A stretch of DNA of 53,949 bases from Candidatus Poribacteria bacterium (GTDB lineage: Bacteria > Poribacteria > WGA-4E > WGA-3G), in the NCBI GenBank assembly GCA_012270795.1, contig JAAXHO010000031.1:1-53949 (forward strand), read 5' to 3'. Below are positions 11,947-27,061 of the stretch, one piece after another (position 1 is the stretch's first letter; each line of letters begins with the position of its first letter). The notes under the pieces are model-generated. The model saw nothing but the letters and a program-made list of their open reading frames with translations. It had not been told where the DNA came from and searched no databases. The position numbers were made by a program, and so were the translations under genes.

Positions 11947-12057
11947 CAGGACTTACACAAATTCGGATATTTGATATTTAGAATATTGTCGTTTCAAGGG
12001 TTTATCCCCTTTATCTCGACCCCAACTCCCTACAATTGGGGGAATGTGTTAGTCTTG
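11947..12057. repeat. MITE-like element B2, short version
   Basis: CAGGACTTACAC and GTGTTAGTCTTG ends with a perfect TTAGT duplication on each side (11942-11946, 12058-12062). At 111 bp it is the shortest copy of family B here. Confidence 0.8.
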
Positions 12058-12180: not shown

Positions 12181-14175
12181 ATGATTATCTTTCTACGTGA
12201 AAAATTCATAGCACAAATCTTTATGTGGATAATTGCTGTTGTTTTCATTATTGGCACGATTATGCTTTACGGTGGTTCAGGCGGTCAACAGAATTCGGGA
12301 ACTGATGGTGAGGTTGTTGTCAAGATTGGGACATTGGAGGTGAGCAGAGGAATTTTTGAAGACCGTATTTCACAAGCAATGCGCCAACAGCAACAGAACC
12401 CAAGGTTTGGTGGGGAACCTGATCGGAAAGTAATAATAAAAAGTTTAATTAATGGTTATATTCAGCGTGTTATAGAAGGGAGTGCGAATATCACCGATGC
12501 AGAGGTAATGCATTATATCCGAAGTGATGAAAACCGAGTCAGCACATATAATCTATACGGTCCTGATGTGTTGGAATTCTATAGGTATCAACTTAGCGAG
12601 TCTTCACTACGAGATGGTATCCAAAACCTTGAATTAATTACTGACACAGAAGCTGAACAGGATTTTCAACTTAAGGCGAATAAGGCAAAGGTGAAATTCA
12701 TTGAATTTCGACACAGTGAATACGTAAAACTGAACAACGCACAGATAGAAGAGGTAGAAAAGTACTTCCAAGAAAACAAGCCAGAAATTGAAAAGTACTT
12801 CCAAGAAAACAAAGAAGACTATGCAACTGAAGAACAGGTGAACATCCGTTATATCAATATTAATCCTTCGGATTTTGTTACACAGACAGATATTGAACAG
12901 TATTACACAGATAATCAGAGTTTGTTCATGAACCCTGAGTTAGTCAAAGCGCGGCATATTTTGAAAAAGTTTCCAGACAGAAACAACGTCACCGATGAAG
13001 ATAGGACATCCACGAAAACCGCTGCAGAAGAATTGCTGAAAACTGTGAAAGAAGAGATGGCTGCTGGCACATCGTTTGCTGACCTTGCTGAGAAGCATTC
13101 GGAAGATACTGGGAGTGCGGTAGATGGAGGAGCGTTAGGTACAAGTTACGATCACCTACCTGAAGGCAAATATTTTGGACGTGGACAGATGGTCAAACCT
13201 TTTGAAGAGGCATGTTTTGATGTATTACAACCAGGAGAAGTTAGCGATCTCGTGGAAAGTATTTTCGGGTATCATATCATCCAATTGGAAGAAAAGCATC
13301 CACCTTCAGTGAAATCTTTCCCAGAGGTAGAAAGCGAAATTAGAGGTAAACTGGTCCAAATTGATGGTGTGGATGGAGCAGAAGCCGTTGCGAATGATTT
13401 GATTTTTGAGATTGAGGTTGCGGATTATGAGACTGCCATTGAACTTGATAAGTATAAGGATCTGTCGCTTGAATCAGGAGAAACGGGTTTTTTTAGTAAA
13501 GGTGAAAGAAATATACCGCAAATTGGATCAAGCGGATTTTACGGAGGATTAGCGGAAGAAGTTTTTGACATGGAGGTAGGGGTTACAAATACAATTGAGA
13601 CGAAAGGTTTCAGTAATGATGTATCCGCTATTTTTGTTGTGACAGTCCTTGGTAAGAAACCGCCAGGCATTCCTGAGCTTGAAGACGTTAAGGCACAAGT
13701 AATTGACGATATGGAGCGAAAGAAGGCGAAAGAACGTGCCTTTGCAGATGCGCAGAAGTTGTTAGATCAACGGGCAGAAGGTGGGTCATTGGAGGAGTTA
13801 ATCAAAAAGTATAAAGCACCTGAAGGCACATCAATCGCTGAAAAGACTGTTCAAGAGAGCAGCCTTTTTAATCTTGCGGCTGGAAGTACTTATGTTCCTG
13901 GTATGGGGGACGCAAAAGAGGCTATGTTTGCTGCGTTTGATATGTCTGAAGGGGATGTGAAAGGACCATTTGCAGGGGTTTCATCAACTTATGTTATAGA
14001 ATTAATTGAACGGATAGAACCGGATTTTGAAATTTACCAAACGGATCCTACCCAGAAGGTTGAACGTTACAAGACACTTCTTCAGAGTAAGAAAAGAGAT
14101 GCTTATGTTAATTGGTTGGGTGCAAGGAAGAAGGCGTTAGCTGCGAATGTTTGGATCCATGAAGACTATCGTTAA
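12181..14175 (+). CDS. PpiD/SurA-type peptidyl-prolyl cis-trans isomerase
   Basis: A 664-residue membrane-anchored periplasmic chaperone. Residues about 12-30 form one transmembrane helix (IFMWIIAVVFIIGTIMLYGG) after a short cytoplasmic start, as in PpiD. A SurA_N-like helical region follows. A parvulin domain lies at about residues 255-365, with KARHILKKF, FADLAEKHSED, GGALG, MVKPFEEACFDVLQPGEVS and FGYHIIQLEEK. The C-terminal 300 residues look like a second, diverged parvulin and helical tail. A direct repeat, EKYFQENK twice, occurs near residue 195. It would assist folding of exported proteins, which is relevant to the very large secreted proteins in this window. Its TAA stop is part of the B3 target duplication. 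Confidence 0.88.
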   Translation: MIIFLREKFIAQIFMWIIAVVFIIGTIMLYGGSGGQQNSGTDGEVVVKIGTLEVSRGIFEDRISQAMRQQQQNPRFGGEPDRKVIIKSLINGYIQRVIEGSANITDAEVMHYIRSDENRVSTYNLYGPDVLEFYRYQLSESSLRDGIQNLELITDTEAEQDFQLKANKAKVKFIEFRHSEYVKLNNAQIEEVEKYFQENKPEIEKYFQENKEDYATEEQVNIRYININPSDFVTQTDIEQYYTDNQSLFMNPELVKARHILKKFPDRNNVTDEDRTSTKTAAEELLKTVKEEMAAGTSFADLAEKHSEDTGSAVDGGALGTSYDHLPEGKYFGRGQMVKPFEEACFDVLQPGEVSDLVESIFGYHIIQLEEKHPPSVKSFPEVESEIRGKLVQIDGVDGAEAVANDLIFEIEVADYETAIELDKYKDLSLESGETGFFSKGERNIPQIGSSGFYGGLAEEVFDMEVGVTNTIETKGFSNDVSAIFVVTVLGKKPPGIPELEDVKAQVIDDMERKKAKERAFADAQKLLDQRAEGGSLEELIKKYKAPEGTSIAEKTVQESSLFNLAAGSTYVPGMGDAKEAMFAAFDMSEGDVKGPFAGVSSTYVIELIERIEPDFEIYQTDPTQKVERYKTLLQSKKRDAYVNWLGARKKALAANVWIHEDYR

Positions 14176-14452
14176 CAGGATTTACGTGAGCTTTTCCTCT
14201 TAAAGTCCTCTTGATAAGGGGATTTAGGGGGTTAATTATACCAATTCAAATTAATATTTTCCCATTAAGGAATTCCACTTTTATTGCTGGTTGGGGTGCC
14301 TCTCTTCGGTAGGAGCGACCTCCCGGTCGCGACCGGGAGGTCGCTCCTACCAGTACATTTTGACAAATGGCATCTTATTTTTTAGAAATGGTATTAAATA
14401 CCTGAAATAACGACTTTTTAACCCCCTTATCAAGGGGGATGCGTAAGTCCTG
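14176..14452. repeat. MITE-like element B3 between convergent genes
   Basis: CAGGATTTACGTG and GCGTAAGTCCTG ends with perfect GTTAA duplications (14171-14175, 14453-14457). The element fills the whole space between the isomerase and mqnC stop codons. It also contains the family's GATAAGGGGATTTAGGGGGTTAA and CCCCCTTATCAAGGGGG arms, and it is interrupted by repeat A6. Confidence 0.88.
14240..14392. repeat. MITE-like repeat A6 nested inside element B3
   Basis: ACCAATTCAAATTAATATTT ... TTTAGAAATGGT, flanked by ATTAT / ATTAA. The core is a long palindrome around GACCTCCCGGTCGCGACCGG. Because it splits B3 between its arms, A6 inserted after B3. Confidence 0.85.
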
Positions 14453-14453
14453 G

Positions 14454-15521
14454 TTAATTGAGTATGTCATAGAAAAAGTTTCTGCGTTTTGGCACATACC
14501 CTAGTTCTGTGATAGTTCGTTCTATTTCTTCTATCGGCATACAGTAGACCGTGCCTGCTTTGCTGACGACGTTTTCTTCAATCATGGTGCCGCCCATATC
14601 ATTGGCTCCGAACTTCAGTGAGAGTTGACCGATTTTGGGCCCTTGCGTTACCCACGACGATTGGAAGTTATCAATGTTATCCAGGAATATCCGTGAGATT
14701 GCTAATGTTTTGAGATATTCAAAGCTTCCTGCGGGTGGGATGTGTGCAAGTTCGGTGTTGCTGGGTTGAAATGACCAGCAGATAAACGCTGTGAATCCGC
14801 CAGTTTCATCTTGCAGGTCGCGCAGTTTCATTAGGTGTTCCACTCGTTCTGCATAACTTTCTACGTGTCCATACATCATAGTAGCACTGGATTTGAGTCC
14901 GACATAGTGTCCCTGCCGCATCACATCAAGCCACTCCTCTGCGGGGCATTTTTTTGGACTGATGATGTTTCGCGATCGGTCAGTCAAGATTTCTGCCCCA
15001 CCCCCAGGTATAGAATCCAGACCAGCGTCTCGTAAACGGGTTAGCATTTCTTGCAGAGACATGCGGTTTATTTTGGCGAACCAATCTAATTCTGGTGGCG
15101 AAAATCCGTGTATGTGAATTTTGTAGTTTGCTTTTATCCAACGGAGTAGGTCCTCATACCACTCCAATTTGAGTTTTGGGTGGAGTCCGCCTTGCATCAG
15201 TATAAGTTCGCCGCCTAAATCCAGTGTTTCTTGGATTTTTTGCCCGAGTTCATCGCGTTCCATCACATAAGCATCGGGGTCTTTTCTGTGACGGTAGAAG
15301 GCACAGAAATCACAATCAACATAACACCAGTTCGTATAGTTTATGTTCCTATCTATAATATAAGTAATGTATCCTTCTGGGTGTTTTCTGTGTCGGATAG
15401 TATCTGCGGCGTGTCCGAGAGCGAGTAGATCGTGGGACTTAAAAAGCGTTAGTGCATCATCAAAGTCTAAACGTTTCCCATCAAGTGCTTTCTCTAAGAT
15501 ATATTTTACGGAATTGTCCAT
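14454..15521 (-). CDS. mqnC: Cyclic dehypoxanthinyl futalosine synthase (MqnC)
   Basis: A 355-residue radical SAM enzyme of the futalosine route to menaquinone. It converts dehypoxanthine futalosine to its cyclic form. The radical SAM cluster motif is CYVDCDFC (CxxxCxxC) in the context NYTNWCYVDCDFCAFYRHR, which is characteristic of MqnC rather than MqnE. Conserved GGLHPKLKLEWYEDLLRWIK, SIPGGGAEIL and SATMMYGHVE segments follow. Full length. Its presence implies menaquinone-based respiration by the alternative pathway; other mqn genes are not in the window. Its TAA stop lies in the target duplication of element B3. Confidence 0.93.
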   Translation of the reverse strand: MDNSVKYILEKALDGKRLDFDDALTLFKSHDLLALGHAADTIRHRKHPEGYITYIIDRNINYTNWCYVDCDFCAFYRHRKDPDAYVMERDELGQKIQETLDLGGELILMQGGLHPKLKLEWYEDLLRWIKANYKIHIHGFSPPELDWFAKINRMSLQEMLTRLRDAGLDSIPGGGAEILTDRSRNIISPKKCPAEEWLDVMRQGHYVGLKSSATMMYGHVESYAERVEHLMKLRDLQDETGGFTAFICWSFQPSNTELAHIPPAGSFEYLKTLAISRIFLDNIDNFQSSWVTQGPKIGQLSLKFGANDMGGTMIEENVVSKAGTVYCMPIEEIERTITELGYVPKRRNFFYDILN

Positions 15522-21289: not shown

Positions 21290-21326
21290 ATCGGATTGGA
21301 GGAATAAAGGGTGTGTAGAATTTTTT

Positions 21327-21465
21327 TGTCTGAACCAGGATTTGCAGGATTACCAGATTTCCAGGATTTTCCTCAACAGGTTCTATTCCTAAAGTTGACA
21401 TCAAAGTGCATCAAAAATCCTTGATGAGGTAATCCTGGTAATCTTGTAAATCCTGGTTCAGACAG
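21327..21465. repeat. Inverted repeat, family C, second copy
   Basis: TGTCTGAACCAGGATTTGCA ... GTAAATCCTGGTTCAGAC; same arms as 2626-2767 with a different central part. It runs directly into a family D repeat. Confidence 0.75.
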
Positions 21466-21604
21466 AATCGCGGAATTCGCGGATGACACTGAAGACACGG
21501 AGAAGAGTACTGCAATAAAACGTCTTGATTAGGGTAATTTTATTTTAAGAAAAAATCCTGATGCAGCAGTCTTTTCCGCGTTTTCAGCGAATTCCGTGAT
21601 TCCG
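21466..21604. repeat. Inverted repeat, family D, first copy
   Basis: Left arm GAATCGCGGAATTCGCGGAT, then GAAGACACGGAGAAGA. Right arm CAGTCTTTTCCGCG, then GCGAATTCCGTGATTC. The second copy is at 51609-51746. Confidence 0.7.
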
Positions 21605-22086: not shown

Positions 22087-25000
22087 ATGACGCAGATTCA
22101 AAAGGTAAAAATACTCTGTCCTCTATTGATTTTCATTCTTATAACAAACATCAATGCACAACAAAATTTATCACAAGAAGCATACACAATCTTTGAACAG
22201 TCCTGCCTAATATGCCACGGAGAAAACGGTTCTTATAGAGAATCCCTTATCATTGAACACACAGCACTCATAGAAGGTGGAACAGTCGTTCCCAATGATC
22301 CAGAAGCATCAGAATTCTATAAACGGTTACTCGGGGATACAGAAAATGGGCCGCGGATGCCACTCGGACAACCACCACTTGCCCCTGAAGCGATTGAGAC
22401 GATACGCCAATGGATTGCCGCAGGCGCGCCCGATTGGGACGCTATTCCCAAACCAAAACCCAGCTTCATTACAACTGATACGATGCTTGAGACGATTAAA
22501 AACCACGTCAATTCTCTTTCTGCGCGTGATAAATCGTTTGCACGCTATTTTACATTAACACATCTCTATAATGCGGGTGAGACAACTGAAGCACTCAACG
22601 CCTATCGGCGCGCCCTCTCAAAACTGATAAATAGCCTCTCTTGGGGACGCAACGTTGTCAAACCGCAACCTATTGATGCCGAACAAACCGTTTACTACAT
22701 TGACCTACGCGATTATGAATGGGATATTAGAAACGAAGCTTAGACACAGATTGAGCAAGCATACCTCTACAAAATGACATTCGACGCGCCGACACAAACA
22801 CACCTCCGTGAAAAACTGACAACGTTACAGCAAAATATGAACTGTGAAGTGCCGTTTGTGCATGTGGATTGGTTTCTTGCGACTGCTTCATTGCCACCCC
22901 TCTACAACGATATTCTCGATCTCCCCGAAACAGACCGTGAATTAGAGACAATTCTTAACGTCTCAGTTCTTGAAAACCTACAGAATGCCCCAGGAAAACG
23001 GGTCTGGCGCGCAGGTTTCAACGATTCTGGTGTTTCAAGGCATAACCGCGTCGTTGAACGTCACATCTCTCAGCATGGGGCATACTGGAAAAGTTATGAC
23101 TTTGCGGGGAGTGCCGATTCACAGAATATCTTTACACATCCGCTTGACTTTGCACATGACGGTGGTGAGATTATCTTTAACCTACCAAATGGCTTACAGG
23201 CATATTTTCTTGTAGATGGTGTCGGTACCCGGCTTGATGAAGCACCCACAAACATTGTCTCTAATCCAGCTGTAAGTGATCCGACAGTTCGCAACGGACT
23301 TTCCTGTATTGGGTGTCATACGGAAGGTATGAAGACATTTGAGGACGAAGTACGCGCTGTTGTTGAACAAGTTGATAACCCGCCCTTTAACAAAGAACAG
23401 GTGTTAGCAATCTATGTCAAAAAAATGGAGATGGATGCACTTATCACTCAAGATACGCAACGTTACAGGGAAGCACTTGAAGCAACAGGTGGAGTCTTCG
23501 GTGGTATTGAGCCGATACAACGTTTCCATGAAGTGTTTCAAGGTCCGCTGGATGCTGCACATGCAGCTGCTGCCCTTGGACTACAAACCGAGATTCTCCT
23601 GGAAAAAATTCAAGAAAATGTTGATCTGCAAAACTTTGGATTGCTGGTACTGGAAAACGGTACTATCAAACGGGATACATGGACAGAACAATGGACAGAC
23701 ATCGTTCACGCATTGAATTTCCCACAAGAAAGCATTGTAACACCCGTTGAACCGATCCTCGAACACACTCCCGGGACGATTGTTAACATCCCCGATCCTG
23801 CACTGCGTAAACATATCTTATTTAGGCTTGGGTATGAACGAATCATTGATCTTATACTAGATCCTGATTACCAAATTACAGTGGAGGATATGGCAAGATT
23901 GACAACATTGAGTATATATTGGAACATGGAAGATCTGGAAGGTCTCCAATTCGCAACGGGGTTAACATGGCTACATATAGACCATTATTTGTTGTCTGAC
24001 ATTTCATTCCTCGCTGAATTTGAAAATTTAGAAAGACTGACTATCAAAGTCCGCAACATATCAGATTTATCACCACTCGCAGAACTTGCGAAGTTAGAGC
24101 ATCTGGAGATCAATGGTGACTACAACATATCAGATTTATCATTCCTCGCTGGACTTACGAAGTTAGAGTGTCTGGAGATCACTGGAAACAACAACATCTC
24201 TGACATTTCACCACTCGCTGGACTTACGAAGTTAGAGCACCTTGAGATCTCTGGGGAAGTAACTATACTCTCTTCAGACATCAGCAAATCAGGACAGTAT
24301 AGATCGTTTGGTAGATCAGGGAACGAAATCTCAGATATTTCACCACTCACAGGACTTACGAATTTAGAAACGTTATCTCTCTGGGATAGCAACATATCCG
24401 ATCTATCACCCCTTGCGGGACTCACTGCGTTAAAATATCTGAATCTCAACAATAACAACATATCCGATCTATCACCCCTTGCGGGACTCACTAATTTGGT
24501 GTCTCTGTCTCTTGGGAATTATAGCTATACTGGGGAGACCTATAGTTCATATAACAACATATCTGATATTTCACCACTCACAGGACTCTTTGCGTTAAAG
24601 GCACTGGATCTCAGCGGTAACAACATATTCGATCTATCACCGCTTGAAGTGCTACCTAAATTTGAAAGACTGGAATTGGAAATACTGAATCTCAGCAGTT
24701 GCAATATAACGGATATTTCAGTACTTATAGGGGCGACATGGTTAAAAGAGCTGAACCTCAACAACAATAACATATCGGATATTTCACCACTCGCTGAACT
24801 CACTGCATTAGAAACACTGTATCTTGACGATAACAACATATCTGATCTGTCGCCACTTGCGGGACTCACAGGGTTATCGTATCTCTCGCTTGCACAAAAC
24901 AACATATCGGATGTTTCACCACTCGCTGAACACACTGCGTTAGAAAAACTTAATCTCTACGATAACAACATATCAGACATATCGCCGCTGAAGGCATTTT

Positions 25001-26616
25001 TCGTGCTTCATGGTGATCCTGGTGATAGGATAAGTAACATTGTTGCTTGGTCCTCCAATCCAGGATATAGGGATCCCAAAAAAGTTATACCAGGACCATG
25101 GTTGCAGGTGGTAGTGACCACGGAGGCATCTAATGCATGGTCAAATGGATGGAAACCGATGGCAAATGCAAGTGATGGTGCCGTAACAGAAGCAGACATC
25201 GCAGCTACAGGGGCAACAGAGGGTGCCTCAGTTGGTGCAAATGTATGGGAACGACAACAGTTCTTCGGAAGCAGTCTCGATGATCAACTGGAAAATTTAG
25301 GGATAGAAACACTTGACACGTTTAGTCTTATTGTTTATGGGTTTACCTTTCTGGATTCACCACGGGATCAGGAAACAACGTTATTCATTCCTGGCGCATA
25401 CTTTATAAAGGTCTGGCTAAATGGAGATCTTTTATACAGCAATTGGAACCGAACACAAGTCGTCCCTGTTACGTTGAAAAAAGGGAAAAATACCCTGTTA
25501 TTCGGTGTGAGTAGTCCACTTAGCGATAGAAATTTCAATTTTCGTTTTCCCGACAGCACAGAATTCACCTCATACATACCAGGTGTGACGTATACCCTCT
25601 CTCATTCTCCCATCAATACCGGCGATACGTTCACCCTTGACCTCAGCGCAAGAACTATCTTTGATCTCGCGGAGTGGCAATTTGATATTTCTTTTGATCC
25701 AACCGCACTTGAAGTGCTTGAAGTCAACGATGGGGATTTCATGAAACAGAATGGAGGTGCCTTCTTTCAGAAAGGAACGATTGATAACACAGCTGGAAAA
25801 ATAGAAGGATTCAGTTCTTCTATTTTGGGTTCAAACGGTGCTAACGGCACAGGGGGACTACTCTCTGTGACTCTCAAAGCAAAAACTGACGGTGACATCC
25901 AAGTAGCCCTACAGAACTTTCAACTCTTGACGACCTCATCAGATCCGATCCCCGCCGGCCCCCATAAGTTTATCTTCACAATAAAGGAATTACTCATCGG
26001 GGATGTGAACAGGGACGGAAAAGTGAGCATCCAGGATATGATCCTTGTCTCCCGTGTCTTTGGAGAGGAAGCATCGGACTACCCCCTTGCAGATATAAAT
26101 CAGGACAATATGATAAATATATTGGACCTTCTTATTGTCGCACAGCACATTGGTGAATCAACAGACTTTGCTGCACCTACGACATTTGCAGTAGACAGTG
26201 GAGAATTAACGCCTGAATTGGTACAAGCATGGATAGACCAAGCACAAGTTGAAAATGATGGATCAATTGCTTTCCAACAAGGAATTGCGAACCTTCAAAA
26301 ACTGTTAGCATCGTTGCTTCCTGAAAAGACAGTACTGCTTGCGAACTATCCGAATCCATTCAATCCTGAGACCTGGATACCGTATCACCTTGCGAAACCT
26401 GCGGATGTCACTTTGACGATCTACACAGCAAATGGTAATGTTGTGCGGACATTGGCATTAGGGCATCAAGCTGCAGGTATCTATCAGAATCGGAAACATG
26501 CGGTTTATTGGGATGGTAAAAACGAGGCAGGTGAGTCTGTTGCAAGCGGAATCTATTTCTATTCGTTAACCGCAGGTGATTTTTTTGCCACGCGGAAGAT
26601 GTTGATTTTGAAATAG
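22087..26616 (+). pseudogene. Secreted dihaem cytochrome c / LRR / cohesin / dockerin protein with in-frame TAG
   Basis: One frame of 1509 codons interrupted only by TAG at 22741-22743 (codon 219). The sequence continues in phase without a gap (TQIEQAYLYKMTFDAPTQTH). Order: signal peptide (residues 1-24); cytochrome c module with CLICH (40-44); TAG; a haem-associated region with CIGCH (407-411); about 15 internalin-type leucine-rich repeats (about 562-975) of the form NNISDISPLAGLTxLExLxL; a beta-sandwich (WLNGDLLY...VTLKKGKNTLLFGV); a cohesin-like domain (about 1164-1303); a type I dockerin with two Ca-binding loops (GDVNRDGKVSIQDM, ADINQDNMINILDLL); and a FlgD/type IX-like C-terminal signal (YPNPFNPETWIPYHL...SGIYFYSL). 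Probably exported and surface-attached. TAG also ends rplK and nusG, so it is normally a stop. A W (TGG) to stop mutation, a sequencing error or readthrough are the alternatives. Confidence 0.8.
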
Positions 26617-26869: not shown

Positions 26870-26962
26870 GGAGTTTGTTCTGGTTTCCAACCAAGATGAA
26901 CGTCGACGAAACACCACATTCAAAATTGAATTGTTTTATCAACTCACGTTATTGATAGTATA

Positions 26963-27002
26963 ATCCTGGAAATCTGGTAATCCTGCAAATCCTGGTTCAG
27001 AC
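26963..27002. repeat. Half copy of inverted-repeat family C
   Basis: AATCCTGGAAATCTGGTAAT through ATCCTGGTTCAGACAA matches the right arm of the copies at 2626 and 21327; no left arm is found here. Confidence 0.65.
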
Positions 27003-27061
27003 AAGTAACCAAACTTTATACGCCACATAACACTGGGGCATTCAATTATCACAAAGCATCA

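Follow-up and report, generated by a model that had tools for sequence, protein, structure and literature searches.

In prokaryotes, MITEs are described as short elements that are non-autonomous, bear terminal inverted repeats, make target duplications and occur in many copies; in Streptococcus pneumoniae elements of the BOX, RUP and SPRITE families are found inserted into one another (PMC10969869). The loss of gene overlaps, in turn, has been described as the movement of a start or stop codon by point mutation, which alters the end of a protein (PMC4161906). The words transposition and insertion are absent from that paper, and the models there consider only codon movement.

The locus analyzed here lies on contig C137 of the 5.18-Mb draft genome of a sponge-associated Candidatus Poribacteria bacterium; this contig is the window, 53,949 nucleotides in length. 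Close matches to its mqnC come from Candidatus Poribacteria alone. It contains two nested elements, B3 and A6, between two convergent genes (Table 1). The families A and B to which they belong resemble the described MITEs in being short and multicopy, in having inverted repeats and target duplications, and in their nesting. They differ in that here both stops of a convergent gene pair lie in the duplicated target, an arrangement that a search of PMC10969869 did not bring up. Compared with codon movement (PMC4161906) the outcome is equal, the loss of a convergent overlap, but here the overlap has been duplicated and both proteins are unchanged. Our literature search returned nothing on point for stops inside target duplications or for MITEs at overlapping convergent genes. 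We regard A and B as new families in Poribacteria, of a known kind (MITEs), and the junction as an ordinary mobile-element event; what makes it instructive is that overlapping stops were duplicated, and this twice at one junction.

Table 1. Features of the convergent junction, with coordinates in the window
Feature	Position	Strand	Basis
PPIC-type peptidyl-prolyl isomerase gene, SurA-like N-terminus	12181..14175	+	ORF; Pfam Rotamase_3 3.8e-22, SurA_N_3 1.8e-6
Left copy of 5-bp target-site duplication GTTAA	14171..14175		Sequence; empty site in relatives
Element B3, MITE, ends CAGGAYTTACG, interrupted by A6	14176..14452		Copies with exact 5-6 bp duplications
Left copy of 3-bp target duplication TTA of A6	14236..14238		Sequence; family duplications
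Element A6, 155-bp MITE, TACC...GGTA, inside B3	14239..14393	+	At least 40 copies, inverted-repeat ends
Near-perfect 44-nt palindrome in A6, 20-bp stem, 4-nt loop	14308..14351		Fold; most copies
Right copy of 3-bp target duplication TTA of A6	14394..14396		Sequence; family duplications
Right copy of 5-bp target-site duplication GTTAA	14453..14457		Sequence; empty site in relatives
mqnC, cyclic dehypoxanthinyl futalosine synthase	14454..15521	-	ORF; TIGR03699 505.9 bits, cut-off 428.1

The empty site in related genomes

The initial annotation had placed a copy of GTTAA on each side of B3, and both copies are read at those borders. ORF coordinates agree with its further claim that each copy holds a stop: the isomerase TAA (14173-14175) falls inside the left duplication and the mqnC stop (14454-14456) inside the right one. 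From this arrangement it had been proposed that the two stops once overlapped in a single TTAA, and that an orthologous locus free of the insertion would display the overlap. From 17 other genomes of the genus, plus named records, we took the mqnC orthologues together with the sequence at their downstream ends. The predicted empty site, with stops overlapping by exactly four bases, was located in 15 of the 17; the exceptions are G009 and G015 (see below). The overlap was read directly from the sequence in G012, and the remaining overlaps were also measured. The overlap tetramer in these 15 genomes is TTAA, TTAG or CTAA, all of them among the four tetramers with which stops can overlap in this way (PMC2174442).

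The nearest genome, G013 (mqnC 97% and isomerase about 87% identical), has the junction CTCAATTAACGATAG. Its core, ctcaat-TAA-cgatag, is the exact product of deleting B3 and one GTTAA. The last residues of the isomerase and of mqnC are identical to those in G013 and therefore neither gene has changed, as had been claimed of the insertion from the outset.

GTTAA is short and AT-rich, and the pair could in principle be a coincidence around an old unrelated spacer, with the overlap in relatives arising by later compaction. We give this reading next to no probability: the element borders fall exactly on both GTTAA copies, identical ends occur with other duplications at many further sites, and the overlap itself is present in 15 of the 17 relatives, these empty sites refuting the coincidence.

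MITE family B and its presumed autonomous partner

B3 is 277 bp long, begins with CAGGATTTACG and finishes with CGTAAGTCCTG; its left end is decayed. The genome has 88 occurrences of the end motif CAGGAYTTACG, compared with one of the reversed control pattern, and CAGGACTTACGCA is present in 17 of 18 genus genomes. About 50 paired-end candidates were found in the genome, most of them about 110-135 bp, non-coding and AT-rich. Exact duplications flank 33 copies by one count (26 of 5 bp, 7 of 6 bp) and 36 by a recount (27 of 5 bp, 9 of 6 bp); with 33 more copies from relatives (26 of 5 bp, 7 of 6 bp), the total with exact 5- or 6-bp duplications comes to 69 across several genomes. B3 is thus a MITE, since its family is short, non-coding and multicopy, and has terminal inverted repeats, a duplication of fixed length and an autonomous partner. 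One small local irregularity is unexplained: beside A6, B3 has four extra bases, reading GGGGGTTAATTA, then A6, then TTAAATACC, as against GTTAAATACC in L009 and L010, two copies that lack an A.

B3 is the only one of the 69 copies whose duplication holds two stops, and a few of the others have one stop wholly inside the duplication. When the 33 copies of this genome are sorted by ORF context, 16 lie between tandem, about 6 between convergent and 6 between divergent ORFs, these counts being rough because the ORF calls are simple and length-based. The initial annotation had looked to a genome-wide survey of both families at convergent gene ends: the families are indeed recovered in many copies, but by ORF context in this genome B has no excess of convergent sites and gives no indication of being directed to convergent ends. 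Another B-type element, with duplication TTAGT, is located in the window upstream of the isomerase gene (11947-12057).

The presumed autonomous partner of B is a 1,090-bp insertion sequence in G004, which has the same ends as B and encodes a 348-residue transposase. It is also seen in G009 and G003, where related copies have 5-6 bp duplications. The duplications of this partner are ACAGA, TCATT, TTAGA, TTGAG, CATAT, TCTGT, CCTAG and TAACTC (5 bp, n=7; 6 bp, n=1). The G004 transposase passes the NCBIfam model NF049921 IS701_2 (373 bits, cut-off 250) and stays below the cut-off of the older model NF033540 (96 bits, cut-off 150).

Neither published family accommodates the partner fully. It shares with IS701 the match of its transposase to the IS701_2 model, but IS701 elements are 1,400-1,550 bp long with 4-bp duplications (De Palmenaer 2008, PMC2266710), as against 1,090 bp and 5-6 bp here. 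Its 5-6 bp duplications and its CAGGACTT ends, which fit C-----YT, are those of the IS1634 family, whose published length is however 1,500-2,000 bp (PMC2266710), and no IS1634 model is among the NCBIfam matches of the partner transposase at E 0.001. Since the IS701_2 model is passed and the size and duplication length are off, we refer to the partner as IS701_2-type and not as canonical IS701. The assembly that carries B3 has only a 131-residue remnant of this transposase, and the enzyme that would have moved B3 is accordingly deduced from relatives. In addition, no match to DDE_Tnp_1 was found in the same genome, which fits the absence of an intact partner.

MITE family A and the order of insertion

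At least 40 A6-like copies are present in the genome, with up to 98% identity over A6. A duplication of TTA or TAA flanks at least 40 A copies, and the ends are TACC/GGTA. With inverted-repeat ends, many copies and a fixed target duplication, A6 represents a second MITE family, separate from B, each family having its own duplication length. Because the duplication of A is always TWA, an inserted A has TAA on one strand at each of its ends.

TNA/TWA targets are used by IS5-group and PIF/Harbinger-like elements, which A resembles in its 3-bp TTA/TAA duplication and its terminal inverted repeats. The duplication of PIF/Harbinger is 3 bp (PMC2213677). A differs from these elements in that no transposase partner was found for it: the PF13586 and PF13359 loci in the genus lack an A-like end pair around the transposase together with a TWA duplication.

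The 44-nt palindrome of A6 is exact or almost exact in most of the A copies (among the at least 40 listed). Other genomes of the genus match a palindrome of the form GTAGGAGCGACC...GGTCGC at 94-100% over about 42-50 nt, whereas the remainder of A reaches only 75-80% identity there or is unmatched; the palindrome looks like a REP-like module. The window also includes a further inverted-repeat family with ends TTGTCTGAACCAGGATTT (2608-2786, 21322-21467 and 26957-27004), which also turns up close to A or B copies in other parts of the genome, and tandem 66-69 nt repeats in an apparent leucine-rich-repeat gene (23995-25024).

The order in which the two elements arrived, B first and A6 later, is supported by their nesting, by their divergence and by the near-absence of A from G013. 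A6 lies inside B with a duplication of its own, and that B copy therefore predates the entry of A6. Against a consensus of its 15 nearest copies, A6 shows 98.1% identity. For B3 with A6 taken out, identity to the B copies compared does not exceed 82%, although the decayed left end of B3 makes divergence only a rough clock. Family B is abundant both in this genome and in G013, whereas A-like elements are abundant here and nearly absent from G013 (three weak matches).

The nesting could also have arisen elsewhere, with A6 already inside B and the composite B(A) moving to the locus in a single event as one 277-bp unit. Composites of this kind do exist in the genome, at C166:14801-15075, which has intact ends and the duplication TTATAA, and at C276:22269-22487. 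In both, A sits at the same TAA of B, in opposite orientations, and both the position of A and the B subfamily differ from those in B3(A6). At C166 the A shares 98.7% identity with another stand-alone A and 80% with A6, which places it in another A subfamily. Judged by A subfamily, A position, B subfamily and orientation, none of the composites is a copy of another; those at C166 and C276 arose from separate insertions, and the AT-rich center of B has been targeted by A repeatedly. Among the matches listed, the best full-length match to B3 and A6 together is at most 79%. We consider transfer as a single unit unlikely, and separate entry of A6 into B3 is the preferred course. Of the earlier proposal that the two events can be dated relative to each other, the order stands; A6 probably entered at this very locus, a donor copy being the other possible place.

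Folding of the insert

On either strand the insert has a very stable fold (z about -8.3). The palindrome of A6 is terminator-like on the + strand, and a rho-independent terminator is often missing from convergent genes that overlap (PMC2174442). It might accordingly be asked whether the insert has taken on a role as a bidirectional terminator or insulator and separates the convergent transcripts. Such a role seems improbable. A strong fold is expected for MITEs because of their inverted repeats, and the palindrome is the one terminator-like site, a weak one: the T-tail 3' of it is poor (AGTACATTTT) and is absent on the minus strand. Moreover, 15 relatives do without any insert, and the B insertions of this genome are between convergent ORFs in about 6 of 33 cases against 16 of 33 between tandem ones. 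In view of the weak site and the 15 insert-free relatives, no regulatory role is claimed. The junction gave no Rfam match.

Other events at the same junction

The two genomes that lack the empty site are also instructive. In G015 (G015:C63:1263-1420) the stops are separated by 145 nt, and the insert belongs to a third repeat family, an unrelated MITE (139-bp match, at least 40 copies in G015), whose copies start near ACGTGAGTTTGAT, end near ACGT and mostly have 7-8 bp duplications. The duplicated flank at the junction is TCAATTAG, in which the overlap TTAG is present in full. The shared stops have thus been duplicated by two unrelated MITEs, independently and in different genomes. With a 4-bp overlap, a 5-bp duplication keeps both stops at two positions only and an 8-bp duplication at five; selection would explain why stop-preserving positions are the ones seen.

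In G009 the stops abut without overlapping, in a tandem TAAC TAAC (TTAACTAACGG). This bare tandem is possibly the footprint of an excised element, or perhaps a product of slippage. With at least two independent cases here (B3 and G015) and perhaps a third (G009), target-site duplication may be a recurrent, damage-free resolution of convergent overlaps, a generalization that we put forward tentatively and do not yet hold to be the probable one.

Implications for convergent gene overlaps

The course of events proposed for this locus is very probably correct as a whole. The ancestor would have had two convergent genes sharing a 4-bp stop overlap, TTAA. B3, non-autonomous, would have been mobilized by the DDE transposase of a 1,090-bp IS701_2-type insertion sequence, either by cut-and-paste or by copying, and inserted at GTTAA through a staggered cut of 5 bp. 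Repair of the gaps would then have doubled GTTAA, giving each gene a complete stop and leaving the proteins unchanged. Later, A6, an unrelated MITE with a 3-bp TWA target, would have entered the AT-rich middle of B3.

The survival of the insertion does not need a function of the insert to explain it, because only a duplication that spans the whole overlap leaves both genes intact. On this scheme, an insertion at overlapping stops should persist only if its target duplication takes in the entire overlap. The locus adds to codon movement another route by which a convergent overlap may be lost, in which the duplication made by an element spans the overlap and gives each gene a stop of its own.
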